Below are positions 3,041 to 63,205 of a DNA stretch of 64,000 nt, piece after piece. The position numbers and the translations under genes are program-made. This DNA comes from Cephalotus follicularis. Lineage: Eukaryota; Streptophyta; Magnoliopsida; Oxalidales; Cephalotaceae. The stretch is from positions 270,624-334,623 of the forward strand of contig BDDD01000921.1 of the NCBI GenBank assembly GCA_001972305.1. The letters are read 5' to 3'. The first letter of the stretch is position 1; the number at the start of each line of letters is the position of its first letter. The notes below the pieces were generated by a model. The model worked only from the letters and a program-made list of their open reading frames with translations, did no database searches and was not told the origin of the DNA.

Positions 3041-3187
3041 CGTCGACGCCTTTCTAAACACATCGACGTCCTTGAAGCAAAGGAGCGTACGTAAATGCAT
3101 GCACATGCACGTCGATGCAGGCGAGGACATCGACACCCTCATGAAAAAGGGGAAAGACGTCGACGTCTTTGAAGAAGACGTCGATGC
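3041..3187. repeat. TCGA-core palindrome cluster 1, LTR A (CG-flank flavour)
   Basis: Cores (CGAC or CGAT) lie at 3044, 3064, 3113, 3131, 3161 and 3182, in contexts such as GCGTCGACGCC and GACGTCGACGTC. Intervals are 20, 49, 18, 30 and 21 bp. The cluster lies 194-340 bp from the LTR start, the same offset as the CAGTCGACTG-type cluster of the reverse copy (37938-38095). Confidence 0.8.
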
Positions 3188-3961
3188 GTAACGTCCAATG
3201 TCAGGCACGTTACTCTGCTGATAAAATAACGTGCAAAGGGGAACTTTTTAGGGCCTTTTGCAGACTCCTTGGAGCATGGACAATACGTGTTGAGCATGCT
3301 GAAATGTTACCAGGCATGCAGGTGCTAGGAGGGAAGGGATGGCATGACACTTGGGTGTGCATGTAGGCTTTGAGATAGCCTTCATCGCCTGCTCCTGCAA
3401 AGGAAATGAGGCAGAACTGGGAAAGAGGGAAGAATGGGAAAATGGAGCCTGTGAAATGCATGCAACAGGCCAGAGAAGGAAGAGAGAGATGTGTGACCAG
3501 CATAAAACGCCTCCTCTCTTTACCCTTGGTATGGCCAAGACACCAGTGTAAGGAAACAGAAAGTGAAGGAGAGAGAGAGGTTCCTCCATTGTTGAGCTTG
3601 GTTAGAGCTTGGAACTTGGAGCTGGTGGATTCCAGCAACGGGACAGACCTGGAGGGGCTGTTGTGACCAGTTTGGAACGCAAAGAGGTGGACTTTCTAGT
3701 TCCTAACTTGGAACAAAAGGTAGGGGAAGCCATAACTGTAATCTTAAGATTAATATTCATGCATGGACTATGGTTTTGGTGTATGATTTGCATGATTACT
3801 GAATTGATTTTGTTCACTGGAGCGATGTCATGTTATGCTAGATATGTGATATGTATCTGTATGTTGGTTCCCTGCCTTGATTACATGTTATTTTGCATGT
3901 ATACGGTTTGTAATGGCCACTGTCTGTTATGTCGTGACGAAGAAGATGACTGCTACTCGAA

Positions 3962-4262
3962 ACACGTCGACGCCTTTTAAGAACATCGACGTCTTTGGGT
4001 TATTTGCTTGGTTACTGACGTGAAACAGATCCACGTCTTTGGAAAGATATCGACGAATTAGGCTATCTGCTTGGGTTTTGACGTATTACACGTCGACGCC
4101 GTAAGCAATACGCTGACATTTAAAGGATCCAGACCTTGAGCGTCAACGCGTATGAAATGGACATCGACGTCTTTAAACAGTGGAACGCGCTGACACTAAG
4201 GACTTGAACATCGACGTTGATGGACAAAGACATCGACGCCTTATAATATACATCGACTTCTT
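3962..4262. repeat. TCGA-core palindrome cluster 2, LTR A (CG-flank flavour)
   Basis: About ten units of the type ACGTCGACGCC or ACATCGACGTC, several degenerate, interspersed with AT-rich spacers. The offset from the LTR start (about 1115-1415) matches the CAG-flavoured cluster of the reverse family A copy (36957-37135). Confidence 0.75.
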
Positions 4263-5583
4263 TTGGTACTGTTTGGAGGTTTCCTTATCCAACAGTGCGA
4301 AACGATCCCGATTCCTGTTTGGGTGCATTTGAGAATTTGTATGCATTGCATATACACTGCTTACTGCCTGTTTATTTACTGCTTGTAAATCGTTTATGAT
4401 TTCTAAAAGTTATGATATTTAGAAATGCATATGTGAACTTGGAATGCACTATTTTGGAGTATGAAAATATGTATTAACTAATAACGTATTTTCGAACGAA
4501 CTGGAAGCGATTTCCACTACTGAATTGTTAAGTATTTTCTATCTATTAGAAATACATATTTCAAATATTAACACTTTCAAAATATTTTAAAATGAATTGC
4601 CTGTTGTCGATCTAAACGATCACCACTGTACTGTTTTACTACACTGTTTGCTGTTTGATTCACTGTTTGCTCTATGAATTTCTATATGGTTGTGCTTGAG
4701 CCACTAGTAGCCTGGCGGAGACTGCCACGCCGGCTAGTGGTAGGGTTGACCTTGGGGCCAGGAGTTGGCTGGGTGACTCGCTGTACTGTACTGTTGCCTC
4801 GCTTGGTTGCTTGGAGTAGGGACCGAAGTGGGAGTGTAGCGTGGGGCCAGGAGCTGGCAGCGTTACATATACTGCCTGCCTATTGTGGTCCTCTTACGGA
4901 CTTACTGTACTGCCTGTTGGTCCTTTTCGGACATTTCTGTGCCTGTTGATGTAGCCCTGGCTGGGTTACAACTATACTGTTCTTGCATACATATAATTTT
5001 CATGTTTATGTACCCACTGTTATTTTTACTGTAAAGATATATATATCTTTCATATATATATATATATATAAACCGGTATTTCCTGCACTGCATCAGTTAT
5101 GCATACATTACATGACATGCATTTAATATTGATCCCGAGCTGCTTTTATGACTTAGCCGAGTGAGGACAAAGGCTAACCCCCCTACTTTACAGATTGATG
5201 CAGCGAACCGGTTGGACTGGCATGGAAGAAGAACGAGTTGTCATGTTGTAGTTGTTCTTGGTTTTACTTATTCTCCTAACTTGTAATAAGCCTGGTTTTG
5301 TTTAAAGACTACTTTTGTACCATACTTATGGTTTTGTTTAATGATGGGTTTTAATGTTGTAATGTGATCCGCTCCGTTTTGATGGCTATTAACAATTACG
5401 GACTTGTATTAAGTAGCGTGTAGTATGGGATGCACGTTATGAGTTTTCAGCTTATGAATCTTGTGCTTCCGCAATTGATATCTTGTTTAAAAGTTTAAAT
5501 TTTATGGTTTCTACATGAGCTGAATTTATATGTTAATTGCCTTACCACTTTAATGTTGTTTTCTCGATAACGGGGGCGTGACA

Positions 5584-8517
5584 CCTATCCCTCTTCCAAA
5601 CCCGATTCTCTTCCTTCTTTCTCTCCCTTAATCTCGTGAATCCCTCCCTTTTCCTTATCCTAAAAGATTGTGTTCCTTCTTTCCTTATGTCAGCTGAATT
5701 TGTCTCTTGTTTTCTGTTTAAGAATGCCATTTACCCACTGTTTTACGCCATCTATCTTTCTTGCGCCTGGTCATCGCCGAACCTGCAAGACTTGGGCATT
5801 TGTGTTGTTCTTCATGTTTTTGCTTCATCAAAATCAGGTTTGTACTTTATGATTCTACTGTTAGATGGTTTAGTTTTGCTGTATGCTCCTTAGACAGTTG
5901 TTGAATCCGTATGTTGTTCCTTCTTTTGTCCTGTTGAACAGCTGTGTGATCTTTGTAAATTGTTGTGCTCCTTCTACAATTTTGTGTCTCCATTGCAGGT
6001 TAGTTAAATTGTTTAACTGTGATGGTTTGTCTAGTTTTGTTATGAATCCGTTTGCATATCTTTACAAGCTGTTAGAATGTCATTTTTTATTCCTATCACT
6101 CTGTACTTTGTCTTTGTTTTTGAGTTAGTTGATCAGCTCCTAGGCGTCTTGCATAAGCTGTAATCTGGTTTTGTATTTGAGGGTTGGCATTTTCGATAGA
6201 AAATTGGTTATATAGCTATGTATGCAATTGATTAAAATGGATATCTCTCTTTAAGTTTAGCCACTGTTTACCTATCTCTTATTAAATTTAATGTTTTGTT
6301 ACTATTTTCAATACTTCATAGAGTCTTATTTAAATGGTTATGACCCTCTGGTATTGAGAAACCCATGTTTTGATAGAAAATTTGCATAGGACTGTTAGTT
6401 TACTGTAGTCGGCTGTTTCCATGAATAGTCAGCTGTTGTGCTTGGTGTAGTCAGTTGTCTGTAAGATCAGTCGATTGCTATTCCTTGCACAGTCGACTGG
6501 ACCACTGCCTTAGTCAACTGGCTACAGTCCTGCTTATGTAGTCGGCTGGCCATGTGGTGCAGTCGACTGCCAGGTTTCAACAGTCGGCTGGTCAGTCCAT
6601 GAAATTCCTATTTTTAAGTTTCCTTATCCTTTGGTACTTCGGTTGAATCAGAGTCTGTTTTAAACACCGTTATGATTCTGTTTTAATGTCCGTAATTGTT
6701 TTAAGCCCTTATATGAATGATTTTATATTTTATAGATAATTGTACTACCGAGGTGCATTTTAGAAATTCGTAAAGTTATTTCTGTGATCGCATAAGGTAC
6801 GAATTCTCCTTACATTAGGTTCTCTATCGGTTTATTAAAATAAATTCAGATTATGTTTTTCGTACGGATATTTCTGTTCTTGGGCATCTGATTTATTTGA
6901 AATGATTTTGAGTTTGATTTTTAAGTATGGATCTTCGTTTCTTGATACACTCTTACCCATTTTTATTAAAGTATAAATTTAGATTTATTCTGTGAATGAA
7001 ATACGGATTCTTTATTTTGGTTATCATTCGGTTGTATCTGAATCGAATCTGCTTTGTTTTAATGAGATGTACGAATACTTCTTTCTTGGTCATCTCTCTG
7101 GTTTTATTTGAAATGGATTCAGTATTGCTTTTGTTACAGACTTTTCATATTTGATACTACCTTTTGGTTTATGAAAAGGTGCGGATTTTATTATCGGATG
7201 TTTGTTTCGATTCTTTTTTATAAAATCCGTTTCAAAATTGAAGTTTAATATCACCGGTTTTATAAATTGAGTATGACTCTCACTTATGAAAGTATACTGA
7301 TTTTGATATTGAACATGGCTTTCACATTAGGAAGTATGTTAATGATTATGATATGTTTAGAAAATGTTTAGAAAATCTGATTATGTTCTTAAATTATTTT
7401 GGGAATAAAACAATATTTTTGGAATAATGACACACAAAGATATTTCCTAGCTATGGAGGTACCATAGGCATGTCGTAGGCCTGGCACGGTGACATGACAC
7501 TTCCGTAGCAGGGTGATTTGACTACGGCGTCTCTCTATGTTATGATATCTTGTGGATATGATGTAGATCCCCCTTTTGATAGAGGCGTATGGGTTAACCA
7601 TAGGATTTGTTAAGGATTTGGACTTTCGAGATTGATTGTGTAGTGCCATACACATCATTCCGTCGGAGCATGTGGGCTTTGCAAACCCCTTGCATTTATT
7701 TATATGTAGATGAACATTGGATCACTGTTATGGAATTATTAAATCGGATATTTATGATTGTTCGTATTTGAATTATGAAATTCGGATATGGTTTTGAAAT
7801 TTTGATATTGTTTTGAATTTCATATTTTGCTTTGAAACTCATATATTGCTTTGAATCTCGAATATTCATTTTGAATCTGTGATGGAACTATGGGATCGGA
7901 TAAAGCTATGGTTTTATGATATTTGAACAGATTACGAAATTCGAGATTTTGATTTTTTATAACTGTTTTAGTCAAATATTCTGTTTTACTTTATGCGAAA
8001 GTATTTTTGTCTCGTTTTGCATGATATACATGATATTTAAAAGTTTAGGTATTTTCTATCTTTTAAATTATCGTTTACTGTTTTATGTTTCTTTATCCGT
8101 ACTGAGGTTTGCTCAGCCGCGTTTTGTTTTCCATGTGCATGTTATCAGGAGCATCAGGAAAATGTGTGATGAGTGATGTCCACCTATGTCTGAGGGTCAT
8201 TTAGGAGATTGGTCCGTTTATGTTTTTGTTGCCTTATGGTCATGTTAAGGCCTGTGTTTTGAACAATGTTATGCTTTTCAGTTTATGACTTCGGATTATG
8301 ACTTCGGTTTATGATAAAGGTTTCAGATTATGTTATGAAATGTTATGTTTAGACCACCACGTTTTGAATAAAGTTAGGTTTATATTTTGATAAAATAAAT
8401 AAAGATAAGATTGTGCCACCACGTCAGTTTAAAAAAGGTTAAGCTATACTTTGAGATCATGTTAGATATGTTCAATATTATGACCTGTAAGGGCTCCCAC
8501 CGTTCGGGGGTGTTATA
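5584..8517 (+). mobile_element. LTR of family B, 5'-truncated
   Basis: The right end reads TATTATGACCTGTAAG then GGGGTGTTATA, closely matching the end of the B' LTRs at 16754 and 24078. The block around 7450-7700 is alignable to 15904-16150. The left part (CCTATCCCTC, then 5600-6200) is alignable to the minus strand of about 49860-50520. Its first segment is missing because element A lies to its left, so A was inserted into this LTR. No primer binding site follows the right end, so it may be a solo LTR. It holds a palindrome cluster (6408-6592). Confidence 0.75.
6408..6592. repeat. TCGA-core palindrome cluster, LTR B (CAG-flank flavour)
   Basis: Nine units of the CAGTCGACTG or AGTCGGCTG type. 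Core positions: 6410, 6430, 6452, 6472, 6494, 6515, 6543, 6564 and 6585. Intervals: 20, 22, 20, 22, 21, 28, 21 and 21 bp. Confidence 0.85.
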
Positions 8518-10337: not shown

Positions 10338-10478
10338 CCGTCGATGCTTTCTTCTCAACAGTCGACACTTTTATGTGTCAAACCAAACAGTCGATGCCTT
10401 TTGCTTTCAAACAAATCGTTGATGGCTTATACTTATGCTTTTTAAAACTGTCGATGCCCAAGGCTATGCATCGACTCT
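10338..10478. repeat. TCGA-core palindrome cluster, LTR D (CG/AG mixed)
   Basis: Units CCGTCGATGC, CAGTCGACAC, CAGTCGATGC, a degenerate TCGTTGATGG, CTGTCGATGC and GCATCGACTC. Clear cores lie at 10342, 10363, 10392, 10452 and 10472. Confidence 0.75.
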
Positions 10479-11210: not shown

Positions 11211-11291
11211 AACAGCCGACTGTCACAGGGTAACAGTCGACTGGTTGATTCGTGGAAGAGACGGTCGACTACCACAGGACGACAGTCGACT
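11211..11291. repeat. TCGA-core cluster 1, LTR C (CAG-flank flavour)
   Basis: Cores at 11217, 11238, 11266 and 11287; intervals 21, 28 and 21 bp. The reverse copy at 1036-1084 keeps 27 and 21 bp. Confidence 0.8.
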
Positions 11292-12340
11292 GGAGTGACA
11301 CAGAGCAGGCATCTGGCATGCGCAGAAACAGTGATGACAAGTGTGCTAATCGTGGCATGCATGAGGGATGCGTGTCACCACCTGCCATAACATGCAAGAG
11401 GAGTGCCTTGCATGTCCTCTCTTCCTTCTACAAGATTGCAAACCTGTAACCTACAAAAACATAAGGGAAAGAGTGTGGAGAGGTGCATGTGAGAGAGAGA
11501 AGGAAAAGAGAGAAGGCTGAGTAATGGAGTCTGACGATTCCTAAATTTTCTAAGCTCTATATCAGCTGTTAGAGAGAGCGCGAATGTTAGAAAACACTGA
11601 GGATAGAGGGAGGCTTGCTGGAGAATTGCAGGAGTTGCATTTGGAGGATTTGGGGTGTTCAAAGAGACTTGAAAGCTTTGGATTTTCCTGGTAAGTTTCC
11701 AAATCCGAGCTCACCACTGATGTAGTGGTTTGTTGATAATGTAACTAGGAGAATGTTAGAATGTCTTCTGTTAACATGATTAAGGTTAACAACTTCTAGA
11801 ATTGAAATGGAATTGGTAAATGGTTCAAGAAACGTTGAGATTATAAGCCTCTAAATCGAATAATAGTTGCTGTTATGGTTGTCAATAAGTATATGTGTTC
11901 TAATCACCTCTATACATAGCCTCCACAACATGCAAACTTAGTACTTGCTGAATTGAAGTTGATTAATGGAGAGATGTTGTTAAATGTAAGAATTGAGGCT
12001 TAATAATCTAGTGATAAGCTACTGTTGGAGTAGTAATTGTAACTGGATAATTAGTTAACTTACCGATTAAGTGATTGAACCTTCAAGCATGCATGATATA
12101 GATTCAACTCTTCTGAGATTGGAAGATTGATTTGGTGAAAGTGCTTTGGACCTTGAAGAGAGAAATCAATCCAAATTGATTTCGGGATAGCGTTTAAGGT
12201 AGGGGTAATGACATGTTTTTGGAAGATATATTATGCATATTATGTATGGTTAGTTTTCTGTTTGATTGCATGTGTTAATGGGTTAGTATTTGGACATTGA
12301 AATGCAAAACCTGCTACTGCCTGCCATTTTCTGGGCAAAG

Positions 12341-12452
12341 CAGTCGACTGTTCTTCATGACAGTCGACTACTCAAACGAACCAGTCGACTATTAAGAACA
12401 AACAGTCAACTACTCAACCAAACAGCCGACTGTTCTTGGAAACAGCCGACTG
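12341..12452. repeat. TCGA-core cluster 2, LTR C (CAG-flank flavour)
   Basis: Six units with cores at 12345, 12365, 12386, 12407, 12427 and 12447; intervals 20, 21, 21, 20 and 20 bp. This is one of the most regular arrays of the window. Confidence 0.88.
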
Positions 12453-13830: not shown

Positions 13831-14045
13831 GACCACAGTTTACCCCACATTGTGATACGGACCATACAAAAGAGCTTACCTCACATTGTGGTTGACCATT
13901 CTGTACCGTGCTTACCTCACATTGTGATGCGGACCATACAAAAGAGCTTACCTCCATTGTGATGCGACCATTATGTACAGAACATACCCCTCACCGTGGC
14001 GGGGACCATACAAAAGAGCTTACCCCACGCTGTGAGAGGACCAAT
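13831..14045 (+). repeat. Higher-order tandem repeat, 72-bp unit of two monomers (34+38 bp)
   Basis: GACCATACAAAAGAGCTTAC recurs at 13860, 13932 and 14004, exactly 72 bp apart. The variant GACCATT... lies between at 13894 and 13966. Each monomer ends with a CACATTGTG-like block. Single diverged monomers flank the array. It lies in LTR D just before the B' insertion. Confidence 0.85.
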
Positions 14046-14370
14046 ATAAATTATGAAATAAATGACATAGTTAGTGTTATCTCATTCCTCACACCTCCAC
14101 GACACCAAAAGTGCGTCGAGGGTGGGATGGACCCTATGGACTGATTGTCCCTATGATTGATGTGGATTGTTATATAGATTGTCTATAGGCCTATGGCCTT
14201 TAATGTGACATTAGGACTAGCTAAGTATACCACTGCTTAGGGACAGTTTGTAATATCCCGTTTCTATGCTGACATGTTTATTGTTGGATTATACCTTTTG
14301 ATTTATGCTATGGTTTGTGGACCTCTTTGATTTTTAGTTTGAATTTCTTTTTGTTTTCTGGGCACAAAGC

Positions 14371-14500
14371 ACCGACGCTCTTATTAGAACCGCCAACGCT
14401 TTGGGTGCGGTGAGGCACGTTGACGCCTAAACATGTGACATCGACGCATTTTGTATTTAAGTGCTTAACGCTTTAAGTAAACAGTCGACGATTTAGTCGG
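14371..14500. repeat. TCGA-core cluster 1, 5' LTR of B' (CG-flank flavour)
   Basis: Units such as ACCGACGCTC, CGCCAACGCT, CGTTGACGCC, CATCGACGCA and CAGTCGACGA, most degenerate. The matching cluster of the 3' LTR is at 21671-21810. Confidence 0.7.
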
Positions 14501-15240
14501 CTTTCCATACCCGTTTGGACGGTGACATGTTTAAGGAAAAAGGGGTTTTTGCCATTTTTGTTGATCTGATTTTCCTTCTTTGTTGAAACCGAATCTGCAT
14601 GAAAGGAAACATATCAGTTGCGCGATCTTTACCATTAATTTTACACGTTTTGTTGTTTTAAAAACTGATCACTACAATTCCTTGAAAATCGTCTGCACAT
14701 TTTTAACAAACATGAATAGCAACTTTGCAAGCCTTTTTCTGCATCATTTTTGACGTCTTTTGAAGGTAATTTCTAAACAAAAGTTGTAGTTTGTACTATG
14801 TAGTTTCTATATCACCCTTTAATTTGTATTAAAACCGACTATAATTTAATTTCAAGCATGATTTAAGAGGCCTGTTGAAACTAATTTTCTGTTGTTCTTA
14901 ATTCGTTCACATATGAGACTTTTGTGCATATTTTGTTTCACTGATATTCTGATCAAATAAATTCTGCTATAGATACGTATATGTTATTGTTTTATACCCT
15001 GGACCAAGAAAATCATATTATAGTTCATGATTTAGTAAAATATTCTAAAACCATGTTTTGAAATGAACATGCTATGCAAAACTTGTTATTTCCACGATCG
15101 TGTGTTTATTATTACCATACTGATAGTTACAAACTCATATGACATGTTTTTAAAGTCTGTTTATTGCTACTATAACTTCTGTATATGAAAAATCTGAGTT
15201 GTTCATGGATTTGAAACTGTTTTCTGCAACTGGTACTGTG

Positions 15241-15370
15241 TGTTCGACGCAAACCGTCGACACTTGTATTTTAAGCGTCGCCGCTTTGTACTGTTGTGTG
15301 CTGTGGTCAGTCGACGCTTTATCCTTTTGTGTAATGAAACCATCGACGCCTAGGAACAAACTGTCGACGC
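15241..15370. repeat. TCGA-core cluster 2, 5' LTR of B' (CG-flank flavour)
   Basis: Cores at 15245, 15258, 15279, 15312, 15344 and 15365; intervals 13, 21, 33, 32 and 21 bp. The best units are GTCGACGCTT and TGTCGACGCTT. The 3' LTR copy is at 22551-22682. Confidence 0.8.
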
Positions 15371-16759: not shown

Positions 16760-16770
16760 TGGTATCAGAG
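16760..16770 (+). other. Primer binding site of B'
   Basis: TGGTATCAGAG matches the complement of the 3' end of plant initiator tRNA-Met, the usual primer of this group. It lies five bases after the LTR end. Confidence 0.9.
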
Positions 16771-43889: not shown

Positions 43890-44164
43890 NNNNNNNNNNN
43901 NNNNNNNNNNNNNNNNNNNNNNNNNNNNNNNNNNNNNNNNNNNNNNNNNNNNNNNNNNNNNNNNNNNNNNNNNNNNNNNNNNNNNNNNNNNNNNNNNNNN
44001 NNNNNNNNNNNNNNNNNNNNNNNNNNNNNNNNNNNNNNNNNNNNNNNNNNNNNNNNNNNNNNNNNNNNNNNNNNNNNNNNNNNNNNNNNNNNNNNNNNNN
44101 NNNNNNNNNNNNNNNNNNNNNNNNNNNNNNNNNNNNNNNNNNNNNNNNNNNNNNNNNNNNNNNN
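43890..44164. other. Assembly gap, 275 N
   Basis: A run of N flanked on the left by microsatellites. Sequence content is unknown. Confidence 0.99.
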
Positions 44165-50759: not shown

Positions 50760-51250
50760 CTTACTCCCTTCTGACAAAACATTCCAAGTCATAGGTTCAG
50801 TCTCTTGGGGCAATTGATGAACCGTAAAGACTTGTTGTGGTATGCTTGCTCCTGATGTTAGGGAGGATGGATCATCTCATTGCCATTTGGGTTTACCCTA
50901 AAGCTGATACAGGGTGCATGCGTGAAGGCATGACACTGAACTAACCCACCATAGGATGCCTATTTGGAATGCTCGTACCTTTGCCAATAGGATTCGTCTA
51001 GTCTCGGTAGTGTATAGTCGAAGGAACCTAGTAGATCATACGTGATTTACGTTGTATCCTTAGACCTGAGCGGCTGACATGCATTGTGTAGTAACTGCAT
51101 GGCTTTGATTTTCTCCTTCCTCATCACTAGCCACGTGCTGGAAAAGGGCTGTCTCTGGGCCTTGTGGGAGCTGCATTGAGATTTTTGGGCAAGTTCGCGA
51201 TATGGAATCGCCAAACCCGTACTGAGGGGTGACTTGCTCTATAGCATTTA
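50760..51250 (+). mobile_element. Fragment of an LTR of family G
   Basis: Alignable to about 40940-41420 (CCAAGTCATAGGTTC, AATTGATGAACYGTAAAGACTTG, TTTGGGTTTACCCTAAAGC). It is bounded on the left by the reverse B-type LTR and on the right by the LTR of element E, both inserted into it. Confidence 0.8.
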
Positions 51251-54078
51251 TGTAACGCCCCCGATCCGAGTTCACAAAGAGAGCCTCGAGGATCCGGTGC
51301 GTTACGTGGTGGCGTACCCATTAACCATTTTAACAATATAACTTATTGGTAACATTCATCATTAAATGCTCCTAATCTAAATTATATCTCACCACAGTCA
51401 ACACTAATCATTAACATTATATTCCATAATGATCACTGTCAACATCTTACTGCTATACAGGATCTGTCATAAAATATTACTCAGCGGAAAACATTAACTT
51501 ATAAAGTCATAAACAGTTTATACAAACGTTATTGCGTAACATAAATTCTTTCCGAAACATCTTTTATGAGCTCCTTCTAAAGCTCAACTTTCCACGGTCA
51601 ATCGTTTCCTGAAAAATTATTTGAAAACAAAACATTCAAAGGAATGAGTTCAAATAGCTTAACAAGAATTATCGTAATAAAACATCTTCGAAATTCATTT
51701 TTTGGTATATTTTTATAAAAACTAGCACATTTCATATTCATCTCTTTTCTGATCATACCTCATGAATCAGAACATATCATAAACAACTGAGGGGTTTTAT
51801 AAACATAAAGAACCCAATTGAACCATGCTTCACCGGGGCATTGTGCACTCTCCGATTACTATCCTTACATCACTTGCATGTCCGTGAGCATATCACTCCA
51901 TTATCATCCCTCTTTATATCACAATCCAAGAGTTTTTCTGCACAGTTCATTACATTTTCACATTTCATAAATCCTTTCATAGTACCTTGAGTGATCAGCT
52001 CAAAGCACTCATAAGAACGACATTGTCCATCATTTTGAAAACTTGTATTTCATATAGTAACGTTCATTTTCATGGAAAACTTAAAACATCAAAATTAAAT
52101 TAGAAATCTCAAAGAATTTAGGAGTATAAAGTTCATAAATTTTTGTTGAGAAACGAGGCTACAATAAATTTTTGAAGTTGCAGCTTCCAGGTAATAGCAG
52201 GACATGAGCAGTAGTTTTAAACACAGATTTCCGTTAAGAAAATGACAGAATTCTGAAGTATACCAAACCTAATAGTTTTAGATGACATCTTAAGGTTTTC
52301 AAAACATTAAACCATTAAAAATTTCATCAAGAAATGAACAAGTTATGACTAAAATAAGATGCTGCAAAATATGAGAATAAAACAGAAAATTTCATGCTTT
52401 TAGAAAATGAGTAAAAATCGTTACTTTGCTTTAGTTTCTTTCTCTATGCTGAACAACTCTCAGCAGAACTCTCCTTCTCTTCCCTTGTCCCTTCACTTGG
52501 TTTATCCTATCAAGCTTAGCAGAAAACAGCCTTCCTCGGCTAAGACCACACATACTTATATAAAGAAAACTTGGGGTACAAGCTTCACTCTCTCATGATG
52601 ATTTACCATGGTAGCAGCCCATGTGCTCAATTTCCTTCCTCCCATCTAATGACATTTGTCACTTGTAATTATTTTAGTCCTATCATCATGATAAATATCG
52701 GCAATCTTCACTCCCTAGCTTGACAAGTGTCCTGCAATTAGTATAATTAACCCACAAAATGACAAAAAAGCTAGATATGGTCACTGGTCTGTAGTTTAAA
52801 ACGCCATTTACAGGCTTATCAAAGGTTCCTTGGCTGATACACAGGTCAAGCACTGCTGCTTCCTACCACACACACAAGATTTAGAGTGACAAGATTCTTT
52901 CCCGCTCTGCTCAGGGAGACATACCCTCAAGGGATGGCCCACCACGCCAACAACCCTCTCTATCCAAAACTGTCTGAGCAACCTACTAAGGATCGCACCA
53001 GGGACACGTTACGTAAAAGTCCCGGGAGAAAGCCTGGGTATGACATAACAAAAGTGTTGTTAAAAGGGCAGGAGACAAAGAACCCGAGGACTCAAACTCC
53101 CCGTTTTACTTAAGTCACCAACACTACCTTTGTCTAAGAACTTTAAAACGCATTGCATCACTAAACGCCTGAGGAGAACACCCATGTGCCCCTCACATGC
53201 TCACTTAAAAACACCAACGTCTGCATAACGCCTGACCTGAATGCCAGGGCAGGGGACTCAAGAGAAACTACTGAGGAACCAAATTGACCATTTTACTTAA
53301 GCCCGGGAAACCCACATGCCCTCAGCACGTGCACACCAAACACCCAGGTCTACTAAAATCCCGGGGACACCATCTATCCACGACACTCCCTCTCCCTTGC
53401 TCTTCTCCAAAGAGCGCTTCATCACGTGCTCCTCGCGTGATCACTTAAACTCCTAGGTCTTCTCATGCCAGAGGACACAACTCCTCCATGGGCATTTCTC
53501 CTCTGACTACGGACCCGAGGACTCAACATAAAACATGACACCCCTAACTCCTTAGCCATCCGAGGACTACTCCTCATCTTGGACTAAAATATCTACACCT
53601 TAAAACATCAAACAAATAACTATCCGAGGACTCCCCAGCTGCTCGTGTATAACTGTAAACATAAAACTTAGAACATAAAACTATTAATGTGTCACATCAT
53701 AAAGCTAGTCCTCTGACCTCTCACTCTCGTCTCAATTGACTTTAATCCAAGGACTCCACCTTGAGCCTTATATAGTTATAAAACCATCCAAGGACTCCCT
53801 GGCTCCACAGGTAAAACCCTTAAACACGTACAAGCATCTCTCGTCCTACTCGGTCTTGCTATTCGAGAACTCCTTAACTCCTCGGACGTATTTGATAACA
53901 GGAACTCATCACACCAAACATTCATCAAAGTGAAAGAACAACATAAGTTTTCTTTCTATGTATATCAAAAGAATAACATGGAATCTCTTGCTTTAACATA
54001 AGTTCTTTATACTCAAATTTTCTTTAGGGTAAGCATATTTCCATAAACAATAACTTTAACAAAACTCTGGCTGTTACA
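51251..54078 (-). mobile_element. 3' LTR of gypsy element E (reverse)
   Basis: 2828 bp; on the minus strand it runs from TGTAACAGCCAGAG to CGGGGGCGTTACA. The polypurine tract abuts at 54079. ATTTA (51246-51250) would be one TSD copy, the other lying beyond the window. Compared with the 5' LTR over about 215 bases (from 51284 and 59252) I see roughly 7-8% differences, so E looks older than B'. Instead of TCGA palindromes it carries a GAGGACTC-type motif cluster (53080-53890). Confidence 0.92.
53080..53890. repeat. CCGAGGACTC motif cluster in LTR E
   Basis: At least ten units of the type YCCGAGGACTCC, RCCAAGGACTCC, CAGAGGACAC or CCGAGAACTCC, for example at 53086, 53514, 53567, 53624, 53749 and 53787, often followed by CTCCTCGG-like complements. 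The 5' LTR has the equivalent cluster at about 61055-61865. Spacing is irregular by eye. Confidence 0.7.
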
Positions 54079-54091
54079 TTCTACCCTCCTT
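54079..54091 (-). other. Polypurine tract of element E
   Basis: On the minus strand AAGGAGGGTAGAA lies directly before the 3' LTR start at 54078. Confidence 0.85.
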
Positions 54092-54116
54092 AGAAAAATT
54101 TTGTCCTCAAAATTTG

Positions 54117-57100
54117 TTATACAGTAGACTTAAAAAGATGAGGGCATTCTTGTCTCATTGCTTCTTCTAGTTCCCAAGTGGCTTCATCGACTCCATGATT
54201 CCTCCATAATACTTTCACTAAAGGAATCATCTTGGTCCACAGAATTTGTTCTTTGTAATCCAAGATTTCTACCGGTTGCTCGTCGTATGACAGATCTTCA
54301 TGCACTTGTATCGGTTCATCACTTAGAATATGAGATGGATTTGACATATATTTCTGACGTAGAGATACACGAAACACATTGTGAACATGAGAGAGATTTG
54401 GTGGCAATGCAAGCCTATACACAACCTCCCCAATTCTTTCCAGAATCTCGAATGGTCCAATTTACCGAGGGCTAAGCTTTCCCTTCTTGCCAAATCTCAC
54501 CACCACTTTCCATGAAGATACTTATAGAAATGAAAAATCTCCCATTTCAAACTTCAACTCTATTCGTCTATTGTCTGCATAGCTTTTCTGTCCACTTTGG
54601 GCTGTTAGGAGGCGTTTCTGAATTTTCTTTACCTTTTCCCTAGTTACTTGTACCATTTCTGGTCCCAATAGTGTCTGTTCTCCTGCATCCTCCGAACAGA
54701 TAGGTGTTCGACACTTCCGTCCGTAAAGTGCTTCAAAATGTGCCATCTGTATGCTAGCTTGGAAACTATTATTGTAGGCAAATTCAATCAGAGTGACATG
54801 TTGTTCCCAACTTCCTTGAAAATCTATAACACAAGCTCTTAGCATGTCTTCCAATATTTTGATAGTCCATTCTAATTGCCCATCGGTCTACGGGTGGTAT
54901 GCCATACTAAAATTCAACATTGTACCCAAAGTATTTTGTAGGCTTTTCCAAAATCTTGATGTGAAACGGGGATCTTGATCTGAAATAATCGATACTGGTA
55001 TGCCATGTAGCCTAATAATCTCTTGTTCATAAATCCTTGCCAACTGACACAATGAATGACTATCCTTGATCCGTAGAAAATGAGAAGATTTCGTTAAGCA
55101 ATCCACAATCACCCATATCGTATTATTTCCCTTAGCTGTTCTCGGAAGTGCAGTCACAAAGTCCATACTGATGTGTTCCCACTTCCACTCGGGTATGGGA
55201 AGCGATTGTGGAGTCCCTTTTGGTAACTGATGCTCAGCTTTAACTTGTTGACAAACAAGACATTTTGACACAAAGTCCGCAATTTTTCTCTTCATATTGT
55301 TCCACCAATATAGGTCTCGTAGATCCCTATACATCTTTGTGCTTCCAGGGTGGACTGAAAAATTTGAACTATGTGCTTCTATCATCACTTCATTCTTCCA
55401 ATCTGCATTTGATGGAACACACAATCTTGAATCAAATCTTAATACGCCATCGACTCCCAAGTTAAAACATGTCGTCTTTCCATTCTGCACTCCCTCTGCT
55501 ATCTCCGTAACCTCCAAATCACGAAACTGACATTGCTTTATTCTTTGAACTAAATATGGTTGAACTATGACTTGAGATAGGGAAGCTCATTCTTCTTGTC
55601 TTTTAACTTCCAAGTCCAACCTTTGGAAATCTCTTATCAATTCCTCATGTGCGGTAAGCATTGCAAAATTTCCCATACTCTTTCGACTCAGGGCATCCAC
55701 AACACTTGCTTTTCCCGGATGGTACTGAATTGTGCATTCGTAGTCTTTAAGAAGTTCAAGCCATCTCTTTTGCCTCATGTTTAACTCCTTTTGGGTGAAA
55801 ATACATTTGAGGCTTTTGTGATCAGTGAAAATCTCACACTTTTCCCCATAAAGATAGTGTCGACAAATCTTTACTGCAAAGATGACTGCAGCCAATTCGA
55901 GGTCATGAGTAGGATAATTTTGTTCGTGCACTTTAAGTTGCCCGGAAGTGTAAGCGATCACTTTTCCCTGTTGCATCAACACCCAACCAAGTCCATTGCG
56001 AGACGCGTCGCTATACACCACATAACCTTCTGATCCATAGGGTAAGGCTAATATTGGTGCATTCACCAATCTTTCTTTTAATTCTAGAAAACTCCTTTCA
56101 CATTGGTCGGACCATTCAAATTTAACATCCTTCTGCGTCAACCGTGTAAGGGGGTTCGCAATGTGAGAGAAATTTTTGGCAAACCTTTGATAGTAGCCGG
56201 CTAATCCCAAGAAACTTTGTATCTCGGCTACCGTTGTTGGTCTCTGCCATTCTCTTATCGCCTCTGCCTTGGCGGGGTCTACTGAGATGCCTTCCTCGGT
56301 GATCACGTGCCCCAAAAAGGATACTTCCTCCATCAAGAATTTGCCCTTGCTGAACGTAGCATACAGTTGTTCCCTCCTCAATGTTTGCAGCACTCTCGTC
56401 AAATGTTCTTCATGCTCCTCTTGACTCTTTGAATATACCAGTATGTCATCGATGAAAACTATCACAAATTGATCCAAAAATTTACTGAAAACCCTATTCA
56501 TCATATCCATGAACACAGTTGGAGCATTCGTTAATCTAAATGACATTACCAAAAACTCATAATGTCCATATCTTGTCCGAAAAGCGATTTTTGGTATATC
56601 ATCTTTCTTGACCTTCACTTGATGATAACCTGATCGAAGAACAATCTCCGAGAAGTATTGAGCGTTCTTGAGCTGATCAAATAGATCGTCGATCCTTGGC
56701 AGCGGGTATTTATTCTTGATAGTAACTGGATTCAGTTCTTGATAATATATATAGAGTCTCATTGTCCCGTCTTTCTTCTTTACGAACAACACCGGTACAC
56801 CCCATGGTGATACACTCGGTCGGATAAATCCTTTATCCAAAAGTTCTTGCAATTGATCCTTCAATTGTTTCAACTCGGTTGGCGCCATTCGGTAAGGACT
56901 CTTCGAGATTGGAGCAGTTCTAGGTACCAAGTCAATTGCAAATTCTACTTCTCGATCCGGTGGTATGCCAGGTAGATCTTCAGGAAATACATCCATAAAT
57001 TCCTTTACACTATGAACATCCTCGATCCTCATTTTCTGCTCATTGGTGTCCACTACATAAGCGAGATAACCTTCGTAACCACTTTTCAACAATCACTTAG

Positions 57101-57164
57101 CTTGCATCGATGATATGATCTTTAGAGATCTACTAACTCCCGTGCTTCGAAAGATAAACTCGGC
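54117..57164 (-). pseudogene. Element E pol: RT, RNase H, integrase, chromodomain; stops only
   Basis: One frame, continuous with gag, without frameshift. Order on the minus strand: end of protease, RT (about 57000-56200), RNase H ([19 protein letters not shown]), the integrase zinc domain ([11 protein letters not shown]...CLVCQ), the core ([18 protein letters not shown], Glu in DGQLEWT) and a chromodomain (PLVKVLWRNHGVDEATWE). Stop codons lie at 57093-57095, 55587-55589, 54888-54890, 54522-54524 and 54462-54464. [10 protein letters not shown] is kept, but motif A reads [12 protein letters not shown] where the family has [12 protein letters not shown], so one catalytic Asp of RT is lost. A codon is also missing in ALSRK's upstream VVADALSRK motif. 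Confidence 0.93.
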
Positions 57165-58565
57165 TTAGTCAGGTATAGAAAACCTAACTTCCTTCTTGAA
57201 ACAGTCAACACTAGCATGATTCGCTGAAAGCCAATCCATGCCTAGGATGACGTCAAAATTTAGGATTGCTAGGGGTACTAGGTTTACTAGCAACTTCCTA
57301 TCACATAGTTTTAGATCACATGACTTGTGTACTTTATCTGCCACAAAAGTAGTACCACTTGGTGTTTCAATGGCTAAACCTATTTCCAATTCTTGAGATG
57401 GGGTACTTAAATACCGTGCAAAACATAAAGACACAAATGAATGCGTCACACCCGTATCAAATAGTACATAAGCAGCTTTGGAGCATATGAGAAAAGTACC
57501 TGTCACCACATCGTTAGTATTTTCCATCTCATCAGCCGTCATAGCATATGTTCTGGCCGGCACTCTTTGTTTCAAGGCTCTGCTCCCTCCTTGTCCTCCC
57601 GTCTTTGGTCGAGTGCATTGGTTGGACATGTGCCCTTCTTGACCACAATTGTAACATCTGATTGGCCTTTGAATTTGAGCTTGATCCTGTCCTTGTTGGC
57701 ACTCTCTTGCTTGGTGTCCTTGCTTTCCATACTTATAGCAAGCTCTCGTCCCTTGCAGACACTTTCTGCGATGAATCTTCCCACATTGCTGACAAGTTTT
57801 AGGGGCAGACTTCGCTTTCTTTTTCTTGTTGTTAGAGGATTCACCTGTCGTCCTATTTCCTTGTTTTATCCGTTTTTGTTGGTACTTTTGATTATCCATG
57901 TCTATTCTCAACGCACATCTTAAAACTGCTTCATATGTTTGTAGGTCTTGTGCTATCAACAGTCTTGGAATATGCGGTTTCAAACCCTGGAAAAACCGAT
58001 TTGCCCTTCTTTCTTTAGTTGCTACCATATGAGCCGCATATCAAGACAATCTCTCAAAGTTTGCCTTGTACTGGGCTATGGTTTCCGATTCACCTTGCTC
58101 CAAACCAAGGAAGTCCTCCTCCATATTATCCTTCATTGCTTGAGGAAAATATTTATCCGTAAATACTTTCTTAAACTCCTCCCATGTCATTGTTTCTATT
58201 TCTCGACGTGTCTTCATCCTCTCGATCATATCCCACCATTGATCTACCCCTCCTTCTAATTTGTATATAGAAAACTCCACCTTCTGACTATCTGTACAAT
58301 CCAGCGCTCTGAAAATCTTTTCATTTACTTTGATCCATGTTTCGGCCTCCATAGGATCTGTCACTCTCAAAAAGGCGGTCGGATTATGTCTTACGAATTG
58401 TTCTAGGGTTGGCCTTGATGGCGGAGGTGCTTGATGGTTATTACCGTTGTTATTGACAATAACTTGAGCCAAACGATTCAAAACCGCATTTAGAGAATTA
58501 TCTTCTTCCTCGTCGTGTGTATTCCTATTTCTTCTTTGATCACGATTTCTTCTTACTTTAGCCAT
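57165..58565 (-). pseudogene. Element E gag and protease; two stops
   Basis: The ATG is at 58565 on the minus strand. It reads a charged N-terminus (MAKVRRNRDQRRNRN), the Gag domain (QWWDMIERM, FTDKYFPQAMK), a TGA at 58041-58043 in place of an Arg codon, a basic linker, three knuckle-like motifs (CQQCGKIHRRKC; CYKYGKQGHQAREC with one Cys changed to Tyr; CYNCGQEGHMSNQC intact), then a protease with LFDTGVTHSFV (DTG kept) and VILGMDWL. It ends at a TAA (57165-57167), after which the same frame continues into pol. Confidence 0.93.
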
Positions 58566-58791
58566 CTAGTTAGTATTCACAAGTTAGTTCTTAATCTTAG
58601 ATAATTCTACCCACATGCTAGGTAAAACAATTAAATTCTAAAACTCAAAAAAAAAAAATCATGAAACTAACACTTTTATTTATATTACACTTCACTTTCA
58701 TACATATTTTTACATTTTTACATATTATACACCAAGCTTCTTTCTTATCTTTCTAATCTTCGTTGGTAGAACCATCAACATCAGGAAACTC

Positions 58792-59140
58792 TTATTGTAC
58801 ACGCCTTATCATCATTCTCAGGTTTTCTCTAACTCCTCTCATAATTAATCCGTTAGTTCCACAAATATACCTTAAGAGGACTCTCAAACTTGACTTGATT
58901 TTGCTAAGGATTTCATATTTTCTTGCTATCTCTTGATTATATTCTTCCTTCATTTGATATAAATGTGTGTAAAATTCCTCTCTGTTATTTTCTATAATTT
59001 GCCTTAATTTTTTTTTTCTCTCGCAACTCTTTGTTCTTAGCCATCAAAACTTGCACTTGCCATTCTACTGTTTCAGATGAGCCACAACGGGAGAACCTCG
59101 TACTAGCATCTGAGTTGTAAGATTTGCTCGTTGTCGACAT
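58792..59140 (-). CDS. Extra sense ORF between PBS and gag of element E (one homopolymer frameshift)
   Basis: On the minus strand an ATG at 59140, about 60 bases after the PBS, opens a Ser/Thr-rich start (MSTTSKSYNSDASTRF), then a helical stretch. At a run of ten A (58989-59012 region) the frame shifts by one. In the next frame it continues with a Glu/Gln/Lys-rich helical segment (FYTHLYQMKEEYNQEIARKY) and a basic, hydrophobic end (LLRYICGTNGLIMRGVREN), stopping at 58792. Together it is about 115 codons, 227 bases before gag. The function is unknown; coiled-coil character suggests a structural or RNA-binding partner of Gag. Nine instead of ten A would leave it open. Confidence 0.6.
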
Positions 59141-59197
59141 CTACAAATCAGGTTAGCAAACACACAATTTATATCCTCAAAATATAGCAATAAATAA

Positions 59198-59210
59198 CTC
59201 ACTGATACCA
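59198..59210 (-). other. Primer binding site of element E
   Basis: TGGTATCAGTGAG on the minus strand, five bases inside the 5' LTR end at 59216. It resembles the initiator tRNA-Met type, diverging at its distal end. Confidence 0.85.
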
Positions 59211-59215
59211 TTCTC

Positions 59216-61932
59216 TGTAACGCCCCCGATCCGAGTTGACTTTATGCTCAAAGCGAGCCTCGAGGATCCGGTGCGTTATGTGGGGGTGTACCCATTAAAC
59301 ATTTTAACAATATAACTTATTACTAACATTTATCATTAAATGCTCCTAATCTCAATTATATCACCACAGTTAACACTAATCATTAACATTATATTCCATA
59401 ATTATCATTGTCAACATCTTACTACTATACATGATCTGTCATAAAACATTACACAGCGGAAAACATTAACAAATAATGCCACAAATAGTTTATACAAACG
59501 GTATTGCATAACATAAATTCTTTCAGAAACATCTTTTATGAGCTCCTTCTAAAGCTCAACTTTCCACATTCAATCGTTTCCTGAAAATTTATTTGAAAAC
59601 AAAACATTAAAAGGAATGAGCTCAAATAGCTCAGTAATAATTATCGTAATAAAACATCATCGAAATTCATTTTCTGGTATATTTTTATAAAAACTAACAC
59701 ATTTCATATTCGTCTCTTTTCTGATCATATCTCATGAATCATAACATATCATTAATAAATGAGGGGTTTAATAAACATAAAGAACCCAATTGAACCATGC
59801 TTCAATGGGGCATTGTGCACTCCCTGACTACTATCCTTACATCACATGCATGTCCGTGAGCATCTCGATGCATTATCATCCCTCTTTTTATCATAATCCA
59901 ATAGTTTTTCATCTCAATTCATTACATTTTCACATTTCATAAATCCTTTCTTAGTACCTTGAGTGATCAGCTCAAAGCACTCATAAAAAGGGCATTGTCC
60001 ATCATTTCTAAAACTAGTATTTCATATAGTAAAGTTAATTTTGATGGAAAACTTAAAACACAAAAATTAAAGTAGACATCTCAATGAATTCAGGAGTATA
60101 AAGTTCATAAATTTTGGTTGAGAAACGAAGCTACAATAATTTTTTGAAGTTGCAGCTTCCATGTAATAGCATGACATGAGCAGTAATTTTAAACACAGAT
60201 TTCTGTCAAGAAAATGACAAAATTCCGAAGTATACCAAACAAAACAGTTTTAGAGGACATCTTAAGGTTTCTAAAACATTTAACCATTACAAATTTCATC
60301 AAGAAATGAACATGTTATGAATAAAATAAGATGCTGTAAAATATGAGAATAAAACAGGACATTTCATGCTTTTAGATAATGAGTAAAAATCCTTACTTTG
60401 CTTTCATTTCTTTCTCTACGCTGAACTACTCTCACCAGAACTCTCCTTCTCTTCTCTTCTCTTCTCCCTTCACTTGGTTTATCCTATCAAGCTTAGTAGA
60501 AAATAGCCTTCCTCGGCTAAGACCACATATACTTATATAAAGAAAACTTGGGGTACAGGCTTCACTCTATCGTGATGATTTACCATGGTAGCATCCCATG
60601 TGCTCAATTTCCTTCCTCCCATCCGATGACATTTGTCCCTTGTAATTATTTTAGTCGTGTCATTAGGATAAATATCCATAGTCTTCACTCCCTAGCTTAA
60701 CAAGTTTCCTTCAATTAGTATAATTAACCCACAAAACGACAAAAAGCTAGATATGGTCATTGGTTTGCAGTTTAAAATGCCATTTACAGGCTTATCAAAG
60801 GTTCCTTGGCTGATACACAGGACAAGCACTACTGCTTCCTACCACAAACACAAGATTTAGAATGACAGGATCCGTTCTTACTCTCCTCAGGGAGACGTAC
60901 CCTGCGGGGATGGCGCACCACGCCAACAACCCTCTCAATTCAAAACTGCCCGAGCAACCTACTAAGGATCGCACCAGGGACGCGCTATGTAGAAGACCGA
61001 GGACAAATCCTGGGAACGGCATAAGAGAAGTGGGGTTAAAAGGGCATGGGACAAAGAATTCGAGGACTCAAACTTCCAGTTTTACTTAAGTCACCAACAC
61101 TACCTTTGTCTAAGAACTTTAAAACGCACCGCATCACTAAACGCCCGAGGAGAACACCCATGTGCTCCTCACATGCTCACTTAAAAACACCAAGGTCTGC
61201 ATAACACCCGACCTGAATGCCAGGGCAGGGGACTCAAAAGAAACTACTGAGGAACCAAACTCACCATTTTACTTAAGCCCGGGTAGCCCACATGCTCTCT
61301 ACACATGCACACCAAACACCCAGGTCTGCTAAAAGCAAGGGACACCATCTGTCCATGACACTCCCTCTCCCTTGCTCTTATCCAAAGAGCGCTTCATCAC
61401 GTGCTCCTCACGTGATCACTCAAAAGTATAGGTCTGCTCACGCCCGAGGACACAGCTCCTCCACGGGCATTTCTCCTTTGACTGCGCATCCGAGGACTCA
61501 ACATTGAGCCTCACAAGCCTAACTCCTTAGCCATCCGAGGACTCCTCCTCATCTCGGACTAAGATATGTCCACCTTAAAACATTAAACAGCTAACTATCC
61601 GAGGACTCCCCAGCTCCTCGGGTATAACTGTAAACATAAAACTTAGAACATAAAACTATTAACATGTCACATCATAAAGCTAGTCCTCTAACCTCTCACT
61701 CTCGTCTCCTCTGACTTTAATCTGAGGACTCCACCTTGAGCCGTATATACTTATAAAACCATATGAGGACTCCCTGTCTCCTTGGGTAGAACCCTTAAAC
61801 ATGTACAACCATCTCTCATGATGCTCGTTCATGGTATCCGAGAACTCCTTAGCTCCTCGAACGTACATGATAACAGGAACTCATAACACCAAACATTCAT
61901 CAAAGTGAAAGAACAACATAAGTTTTCTTTCT
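59216..61932 (-). mobile_element. 5' LTR of element E (reverse), interrupted by copia I
   Basis: Alignable base by base to 51251-53961, from TGTAACGCCCCCGATCC. It is cut at 61932, where copia I is inserted; the uninterrupted sequence in the 3' LTR (TTTTCTTTCTATGTATATC near 53950) shows the empty site. About 115 bp of this LTR should reappear beyond the window. TTTCT (61928-61932) is the likely TSD of copia I. Confidence 0.92.
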
Positions 61933-63205
61933 TGTTGGCCTTTGCCACCCCGTTAATTTCATTACCATATATTATTTTGATGATTAACAAACATAGATTA
62001 CTCGTGTGCATAATTCTCTGAGTTACAACGTCACATACTCACTTGATTTTATGTCCAAAGTTGTGCAAAGATCATTTCTGCAGGTACAGGGAAATCCAGC
62101 CGACTGGCAGGCAATCCAGTCGACTGCCCAAGGTTGTGTAGTCGACTGCCACAGGTTGTGTAGCCGACTGGTTCTTCAACCAAACCCAGAAATTGCAGGA
62201 ACACAGATCCAGCCGACTGCCACAGGGGTCCAGTCGACTGCCAGGCCAAGACAGCCGACTGCCACAGGACACCAGTCGACTGCCATGGGTGCACATTTCA
62301 GGCAGTAGCTTCTGTATCTTTTTGACACCCAATCCAGTCGACTGAAGCAGGGCACCAGTCGACTGCCAGGGGGTCCAGTCGACTGCCAGTGAATCCATCC
62401 GACTGTCACCAATTGTGCAAAATCAGGCAGTAGCATATGTAATTCCAATTTCAGCTCAACAACCGACTAGAACAGAGCAACCAGTCGACTGCCAGCTCCA
62501 CCAGCCGACTGCCCAGAGAAAGCAGCCGACTTTTCATCACCAACGGCTATATTCAAATATATGCGCCATCAATCCAGCTGACTGCCGTATAAATCCAGCC
62601 GACTGGACTTGTAACAGAACTTTAAAAATAGATCCGTTGGAGGCACACCTATAAGAAGAAATTTGGAGCTCTTGCACAAGTGATCAAGCATTCAAGTTGC
62701 ATATTCTTTCAAGCTATCTCAAGTACAATCCCAAAGCTTTCAAACATCAAAAGAGATCAATTCAAAGCAATCCTACACATTACAAAGCTTTATTCTTATA
62801 TTTCCTATACACTTGAAGCTTTGTCCAAAGTGAGCTAAAATTGTAAAACAAATTCCTACGAATTTGTAACCTTTAAACTATTACTTTCACACATACAAGA
62901 TAGGTTGTCTCTTGTATTGCTCGGTTGGAGCATATTTGTAATTCGCTTGGTTGGAGCGAAGGTTGTTTGAAGCTCGGTTGGAGTTTCAAGCCCGGATTGG
63001 GGCATACCTAGTGAAATACTCAAGGGGAGGCCTTGGGGAGTGGACGTAGGCGGTTTGCCGAACCACTATACATCCGTTTGCAATTCTCTTAACCCTACAC
63101 TCTTTACATTTCCGCAATTGTGCGTTTGAGTTATTTTAATTAATTGTGGTATTTTTGCTAGTTAATTTTTATAAGTCTATTCACCCCCCCTCTAGACTTC
63201 CTACA
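61933..63205 (+). repeat. 5' LTR of copia I
   Basis: 1273 bp, ends confirmed on the left by the empty site in the paralogous LTR E and on the right by the PBS. It contains the largest TCGA palindrome array of the window (62096-62604). Confidence 0.9.
62096..62604. repeat. TCGA-core palindrome array, LTR of copia I (CAG-flank flavour)
   Basis: Eighteen units of consensus CCAGTCGACTGCCA (often CAGCCGACTG). Cores at 62101, 62121, 62143, 62165, 62214, 62235, 62256, 62277, 62339, 62360, 62380, 62400, 62464, 62486, 62506, 62527, 62579 and 62600. Of 17 intervals, 13 are 20-22 bp; the rest are 49, 62, 64 and 52. Open frames over this region (QST and SRL repeats) are translations of the motif, not genes. 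Confidence 0.93.

Follow-up and report, generated by a model that had tools for sequence, protein, structure and literature searches.

TCGA-core dyad arrays of two flavours in long terminal repeats of Ty3/gypsy and Ty1/copia retrotransposons of Cephalotus follicularis

A 64,000-nucleotide stretch of the Cephalotus follicularis genome (GenBank assembly GCA_001972305.1, contig BDDD01000921.1, positions 270,624 to 334,623, forward strand; hereafter the window) contains retrotransposons of the Ty3/gypsy and Ty1/copia superfamilies in whose long terminal repeats (LTRs) short palindromes built on a TCGA core are clustered. What do these clusters represent, and how did they come to stand in LTRs of both superfamilies? 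An initial annotation of the window had described one motif shared by gypsy and copia LTRs and had proposed either convergent acquisition of sites for one host protein or transfer by recombination. The array unit was found to be a 10-bp dyad with a TCGA core, NNGTCGACNN, which occurs not as a single motif but in two flavours, CAGTCGACTG (hereafter CAG) and GCGTCGACGC (GCG). It is well supported, by the assignment of the elements and by the flavours found in each, that Ty3/gypsy LTRs carry both flavours and that Ty1/copia LTRs do so too, so that the sharing of arrays between the superfamilies stands. The arrays are read here, with a probability of about 0.6, as dyad sites for a dimeric host DNA-binding protein, clustered in the regulatory part of the LTR.

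The window contains 18 occurrences of CGTCGACG (0.16 expected) and 30 of CAGTCGACTG (0.05 expected), both strands counted, corresponding to 9 and 15 places, respectively; among its 6-bp palindromes, GTCGAC shows the strongest excess (48 against 5.3 expected). GTCGAC again ranks first among 6-bp palindromes (116 against 16.3 expected) in 20 blindly sampled 10-kb stretches (200 kb in all, one from every 45th contig between C10 and C865), its enrichment being 7.1-fold, with 3.9 for GACGTC, 2.4 for GCCGGC and 2.0 for CCCGGG. GACGTC was considered as a second motif and rejected, because 44 of its 64 copies overlap TCGA in GCG-type units; separately, a 581-bp tandem duplication at locus L010 (1463–2623, 98% identical) is rich in GACGTC. 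Arrays were then called strictly in the sample and the window together (264 kb), as at least four sites separated by gaps of at most 60 bp, each site having at most two mismatches to either flavour and one of six core variants. This caller identified 40 arrays, of which the window holds 12 and the blind sample 28, spread over 13 of its 20 stretches, versus none in each of 20 Markov-1 resamples, an outcome that supports the clustering reported in the initial annotation; dyad sites numbered 344, versus a mean of 44 in the resamples. Only CAG sites are present in 33 of the called arrays and only GCG sites in 4, and the other 3, all in element C, combine GCG sites with a single CAG site. A search of the whole genome (1.58 Gb) returned 262,153 pairs of GTCGAC lying 15–45 bp apart (9–39 bases between), and the same search returned 18,335 pairs for GAGCTC, 4,308 for CAGCTG and 1,956 for CTCGAG. 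At a distance of exactly 14 bp, GTCGAC pairs number 696, and the reversed control 95. TCGA dyad arrays are a genome-wide feature, not confined to the window. A link to viral contigs was rejected: two pattern scans gave 0 and 1 match, and the one match, L045 (68% GC), was attributed to chance, having no similarity to the window or to the pol queries.

The features of the window that bear on these arrays are as follows, arrays and clusters being listed without strand.

2847–5583, plus strand: LTR A, gypsy (probably Tekay/Del), which follows pol and a polypurine tract (PPT), begins TGTAACG and ends GTGACA.
3040–3187: LTR A cluster 1, GCG; fails the strict caller.
3964–4239: LTR A cluster 2, GCG; fails the strict caller.
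6406–6590: B array, CAG; the downstream part and the end of its LTR align to the C LTR.
10338–10477: short cluster of mixed flavour; loose, fails the strict caller.
11213–11292: B2 gypsy LTR array 1, CAG; LTR framework common to L023 and L021.
12341–12452: B2 gypsy LTR array 2, CAG; placed by the strict caller and homology.
14249–16754, plus strand: C 5′ LTR, gypsy; LTR pair 94% identical, with a site like a primer binding site (PBS) at 16760.
14369–14491: C 5′ LTR array 1; three GCG sites and one CAG site, strict caller.
15254–15370: C 5′ LTR array 2; three GCG sites and one CAG site, strict caller.
18199–21030, plus strand: C pol, with protease, reverse transcriptase, RNase H and integrase H2C2 domains (Pfam).
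21544–24078, plus strand: C 3′ LTR, with a loose cluster at 21672–21801 (fails the strict caller) and an array at 22564–22680.
28885–31111, plus strand: copia E 5′ LTR; a copy with nearly the same limits lies in L008.
30173–30345: copia E 5′ LTR array, GCG; strict caller.
34844–35650, plus strand: copia E 3′ LTR, first part, identified from the LTR pair; it has no site and precedes the array.
35651–38281, minus strand: solo LTR, A family, flanked by the 5-bp duplication TAATC and nested in the copia 3′ LTR.
36959–37124: solo LTR array 2, CAG; strict caller.
37960–38089: solo LTR array 1, CAG; strict caller.
38282–39700, plus strand: copia E 3′ LTR, second part, with a GCG array at 38783–38953.
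49268–49405: degenerate GCG-type cluster (copia I of the initial annotation); fails the strict caller, and its flank is related to L020 6847.
51241–61932, minus strand: gypsy K, the negative control, with no site in either LTR or inside.
61933–63206, plus strand: Sirevirus-like copia LTR, its end set by a PBS-like site at 63208; a gag open reading frame (ORF) starts at 63253 (PF14223).
62097–62605: CAG array of the Sirevirus-like LTR, which has 14.7 sites per kb over 61934–63020.

Site scans confirmed the TCGA-core clusters reported earlier, those in LTR A and at 10338, 21672 and 49268 being the looser ones. Nine of the 12 called arrays in the window lie inside LTRs whose ends are mapped, namely those of C and copia E, the solo LTR and the LTR at 62 kb, and the other three lie in B2 (two) and B (one). 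Site density is 2.4–14.7 per kb in site-bearing LTRs with mapped ends, except for the empty first part of the copia 3′ LTR, and it is 0.21 and 0.27 per kb in the internal regions of C and E, respectively, and 0 to 2.0 per kb in stretches of the window outside annotated elements. Gypsy K, with LTRs of 2.7 kb at both ends, is free of sites throughout, as previously described for its LTRs. One array is internal, that of L011 between pol and a putative env-like ORF. Several boundaries had to be redrawn: the supposed pair of B′ LTRs is the one nested minus-strand solo LTR; the reverse B-type LTR at 62 kb begins at 61933, runs forward and is of the copia/Sirevirus-like type; and the arrays of "copia F" are present, in what is a single 2.2-kb copia LTR family that includes 28885–29687. 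Placement of the copia arrays in an internal leader was also rejected, because the solo LTR splits the 3′ LTR, to which the array belongs. Among other observations, a 36/72-bp tandem repeat lies directly upstream of the C 5′ LTR (13840–14043), the sole gap in the window consists of 275 N (43890–44164), and a minus-strand ORF of 196 aa (47616–48206) has no Pfam match.

Elements A and C were assigned to gypsy by Pfam and B2 through tblastn of its copies L021 and L023, from matches of the whole pol or of its end to gypsy reverse transcriptase, RNase H, integrase or a Tf2-1-like SH3 domain. For A, the SH3 domain lies in the ORF upstream of the LTR (2073–2774), and similarity to gypsy pol was also observed. 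A PPT runs into TGTAA at the LTR in the A, B2 and C group. The nearest full-length relatives of C pol come from Asteraceae and Apium (73–76%, among the best 120 of 8000), other records reaching up to 79%, a pattern that by itself would make an asterid host likely, and several of the relatives among the matches listed contain the chromodomain PF00385; no chromodomain was found by Pfam in the window ORFs searched. Their long LTRs and chromodomain-bearing relatives suggest that A, B2 and C probably belong to the Tekay/Del lineage. Homology to L023 fixed the start of the B2 LTR. B is, on its alignment to the C LTR (three pieces, 70–93%, the last of them at the LTR end), a C-like gypsy LTR. On the copia side, the whole E LTR has a copy in L008, and the E junction reads GTGGCAGATTG. 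The LTR at 62 kb is 88–89% identical to the L011 LTR regions over 813–835 bp and is followed by the PBS-like site and a copia-type gag. L011 is itself a copia element with LTRs 97% identical and gag seemingly mostly missing. It contains AGGGGGAG at four places, the last at the LTR, where the 3′ junction reads AGGGGGAG-AT-TGTTGG, i.e., an AT/TG attachment site after the terminal PPT. Its 5′ LTR carries 16 dyad sites at +165 to +658 and a TATA box at +712, the LTR arrays ending about 45 bp before a CTATATAAAG box. Four more dyad sites lie between pol and an ORF of 320 aa (3112–4071) matching PF20167 (Transposase_32, putative plant transposon protein), which its position suggests to be an env-like gene. 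In its PPT copies, its AT/TG junction and its boxes before the TATA box and the env-like ORF, L011 appears to fit closely the Sirevirus features given in PMC2829016.

With these assignments, the flavours are crossed with the superfamilies. Among gypsy LTRs, GCG sites are found in A and C, and in looser clusters of L018 and L012b that, like those of A, fail the strict caller, and CAG sites are found in B2, B, L012a, L024 and the solo LTR at 35651–38281; among copia LTRs, GCG is found in E and CAG in L011 and the LTR at 62 kb. A further candidate, L020 1896–3055 as an E-type copia LTR with CAG arrays, was not counted, its far side being without homology. The flavour also differs within one LTR framework. 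Three blocks align between LTR A and the solo LTR, one of 122 bp at the start (80%), one of 110 bp in the middle (78%) and one formed by the final 1.3 kb (83.6%), and the clusters of the two LTRs lie at corresponding offsets, at +192 to +330 and +1116 to +1382 in LTR A (counted 2 bases inside its start), where 8 of 8 sites are nearest GCG, versus +193 to +313 and +1158 to +1314 in the solo LTR, where 11 of 11 are nearest CAG. The same contrast separates A, L018 and L012b (GCG) from L012a and L024 (CAG), the integrase ends of the last two being 81–82% identical to that of A. The clusters of C (about +119 to +232 and +1004 to +1111) and B2 (about +148 to +218 and +1276 to +1378) are placed similarly, and these matching two-cluster offsets suggest that the gypsy families share an old LTR plan in which the site content turns over; independent gain of arrays by every family is not supported, because several gypsy LTRs have this framework in common. 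L020 may show a similar flavour difference in a Sirevirus-like LTR, as compared with L011: all seven sites at L020 6847–7202 are GCG, and the downstream end of this region aligns at 75% to the final 257 bp of the L011 LTR. The larger region L020 6327–7202 thus ends like the L011 LTR and has GCG sites only; its LTR start was not found. Two further loci, L002 and L003, have AGTCGACT-type sites 14 bp apart around 1502–1523 (TGAGTCGACTC in L002), perhaps a third flavour, and both carry a piece related to the copia E LTR.

The arrays follow a recognizable grammar. Of 241 gaps of 12–75 bp between neighbouring sites, 160 measure 20–22 bp, and minor classes lie at 27–29 bp (16) and 48–51 bp (17). A distance of 21 bp corresponds to two helical turns, and 28 bp to no whole number of turns. 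Adjacent linkers differ almost as much as those of unrelated loci (37% identity in 73 adjacent pairs, versus 28%), and the bases between sites have little information content, so that distance is better preserved than linker sequence; adjacent dyads are 87% identical, the dyads having been chosen for likeness. The outer dinucleotides of 288 sites are CA/CA in 160, GC/GC in 16, AC/GC or GC/AC in 21, AC/AC in 3 and others in 86, and CA/GC hybrids number 2, the site filter passing hybrids with a perfect core and rejecting those with one further mismatch. Neighbouring sites are of the same flavour in 217 of 223 cases (2 discordant, 4 ties). Such matching halves and flavour purity are the expected trace of a dimer that reads two half-sites. 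Asymmetric variants mostly point in one direction inside an array, the sense-strand form being mostly CAGCCGACTG in A-family, B2 and Sirevirus-like LTRs and CAGTCGGCTG in B; this difference led to the rejection of a universal strand direction.

Under the reading as host-protein sites, each 10-bp site would be read as two identical half-sites by a protein dimer, neighbouring dimers would often sit about two helical turns apart, and the two half-site flavours would correspond to two related proteins or specificities, both of them used by gypsy (probably Tekay/Del) and copia lineages, with an LTR framework changing flavour through replacement of its array. The best named candidate binders would be TCGA-core bZIP proteins, either the F-group proteins that bind the zinc deficiency response element (ZDRE) or FD-like proteins. 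The ZDRE, RTGTCGACAY, is bound by F-bZIPs, and a change of TCGA to TAGA abolishes the binding (PMC7307843); FD binds a GTCGAC motif in FT (PMC13360168). From the sequence we infer the binding, the regulatory effect and the bZIP identity alike. Sites are, moreover, more alike than expected from neutral decay in 12 of 12 between-element comparisons, the expectation being that sites decay like their own linkers under the same ascertainment.

Several observations weigh against this reading. The exact ZDRE has 0 matches in the 264 kb, so that the candidate would be a related protein with another preference at the outer bases. Helical phase is not the sole spacing rule, because the 27–29 bp class does not correspond to whole turns; strict 10.5-bp phasing was tried and found to be modest only (R 0.28 in the 78 gaps outside 19–23 bp), a 7-bp period being equally good. 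GCG clusters adhere to the 21-bp spacing more loosely than CAG arrays, those of LTR A being loosely spaced, and with GCG or mainly GCG arrays amounting to 7 of the 40, the 21-bp rule rests mostly on CAG arrays. Related LTRs without arrays exist, gypsy K having none, and most gypsy LTRs yielded no convincing TATA box. The conservation of sites is possibly inflated if the aligner matches sites preferentially to one another; in addition, members recur across the 12 comparisons, and a null built on the CAG motif served for every one of them. In the single within-element comparison, that of the two C LTRs, likeness is lower for the sites than for the linkers (0.91 versus 0.96), as CpG decay after insertion would give.

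How the arrays spread is a partly separate question. Common descent of the array through gypsy-copia LTR recombination, instead of repeated selection for one protein's sites, concerns origin and overlaps the explanation above; we consider it a strong contender whose chances fall somewhat short of even. Among CAG arrays, linker pairs at 80% identity number 7 between gypsy A-family/B2 and copia arrays (null 2.0, maximum 7), 4 between gypsy B-type and copia arrays (null 0.4, maximum 3) and 4 within gypsy (null 0.8, maximum 4), but no cross-superfamily pair was found at 90% identity. In comparisons with linker shuffles, 12 of 45 gypsy-copia array pairs have z above 3, under a lenient null that also breaks weak dyad extensions, and in one of seven chosen pairs a 76-bp collinear gypsy-copia segment beat 60 of 60 unit-permuted controls, whereas in the other six the observed score was equalled or exceeded by 2, 7, 8, 9, 18 and 31 of the 60 controls. 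The flanks also speak against simple recombination: in a search for alignments of at least 150 bp among 52 regions (the 40 called arrays and 12 added by hand), no direct alignment was found between gypsy and Sirevirus-like regions. The initial claim that the LTRs are unalignable between families fails for LTR A and the solo LTR, and for B and C, which align as described above. In the same search, copia E regions were grouped with gypsy through nested and adjacent copies, and B-type and Sirevirus-like regions were linked only via L020 6847 and 49268. The linker data favour some exchange between gypsy and copia arrays, and given the modest excess, transfer of array pieces appears at least as likely as pure convergence; we lean toward transfer of pieces followed by turnover.

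A broader form of the host-protein explanation, for which the odds are distinctly lower, is that one host code (TCGA-core dyads, a two-turn pitch and two flavours) has been adopted by many abundant gypsy and copia families, that cassettes move between LTR frameworks or are replaced in them, and that a transposable element (TE) lineage could in this way switch host factor in one step.

An improbable alternative is that a mobile element supplies the binder, as VANDAL elements do VANC, the arrays being targets of an anti-silencing factor exploited by unrelated LTR elements. VANC proteins target short motifs that are tandemly repeated in non-coding parts of TEs and that vary between related TEs, and VANC6 also acts on the unrelated element AT9TSD1 (PMC5735166); the flavour difference between close LTRs would fit such a binder. 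Yet the 13 ORFs compared with Pfam gave retrotransposon domains, one PF20167 and two without match, with no VANC-like protein seen among them, and the word palindrome does not occur in the available text of the VANC paper (PMC5735166).

It seems slightly less probable still that the arrays act as RNA, their self-complementary units forming hairpins that give rise to small RNAs and host silencing. A role in hairpin or small-RNA silencing has reportedly been proposed for the maize Sirevirus palindromes. In folding tests, 12 of 12 arrays were more stable than the mean of their dinucleotide shuffles (sense z from −1.6 to −6.5), with flank controls at −2.4 to +0.2; any array of self-complementary units folds, however, the L011 array (sense z −2.5) does no better than its own flank (−2.4), and z is lower on the antisense strand in 10 of 12 arrays. 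CAGCCGACTG, the common sense variant in A-family, B2 and Sirevirus-like CAG arrays, self-pairs through mismatches and not wobble (an untallied observation), and hairpins do not require a fixed distance with free linkers.

Least plausible of all are passive tandem repeats or CpG-rich tracts arisen by slippage and having no binder, for although the one-directional asymmetric variants suggest local unit duplication, grass Del LTRs have a length-variable 5′ CpG island (PMC4029996) and other palindromes are enriched too, GTCGAC exceeds them all, most GACGTC copies overlap TCGA, CTCGAG pairs are rare, adjacent linkers are almost as different as unrelated ones and the same two dyads recur in both superfamilies.

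Sirevirus Ty1/copia elements provide the closest known kind of array to these putative host-protein sites in their palindromic repeated motif (RM), which the initial annotation had mentioned. The RM comprises high-copy, CG-containing LTR palindromes upstream of the TATA box, with extra boxes before the env-like gene, and it has been described as Sirevirus-specific within Ty1/copia, with a CGG-CCG signature in 12 of 13 (Tnd-1 being without it) and an average of four PPT copies per element (Bousios et al. 2010, PMC2829016). The grape RM, CGGTCGACCG, has the GTCGAC core found here, and L011 likewise has sites upstream of the TATA box and of the putative env-like ORF. The arrays in Cephalotus differ in that the CGG-CCG signature is absent from the dominant dyads, CAGTCGACTG and GCGTCGACGC (CAG..CTG and GCG..CGC), in that they are not confined to Sireviruses, clusters being present in LTRs that follow a gypsy pol and PPT, and in that two flavours are crossed with superfamily; dyads are present as well in the LTR of copia E. 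Del/Tekay CpG islands resemble them in comprising a variable CG-rich tract on the 5′ side and a second one on the 3′ side, probably in the very gypsy lineage concerned here, but none was found in Del elements of five eudicot species, and "palindrom" is absent from the available text (Cruz et al. 2014, PMC4029996). VANC targets in VANDAL elements share the short motif tandemly repeated in non-coding TE DNA and the target type that differs between related TEs; they belong to DNA transposons, depend on an element-encoded protein and have another motif (PMC5735166). The ZDRE is likewise a 10-bp dyad with a TCGA core, in up to three copies per promoter, but its outer bases are RT..AY, as opposed to CA..TG or GC..GC here, and it stands in host gene promoters (PMC7307843). 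Among the matches listed from the open-access literature, no report of such arrays in gypsy LTRs was found. As far as searched, the arrays in gypsy, the two flavours crossing superfamilies, the 21-bp spacing and the replacement of flavour within one LTR framework are new.

These results extend a motif described as Sirevirus-specific to the gypsy elements of one genome. They make it testable whether control sites for one host protein arise convergently in unrelated retrotransposons or pass between them, and whether a change of flavour lets a family escape or capture regulation; given their abundance, the arrays would constitute a very large sink for any protein that binds them.

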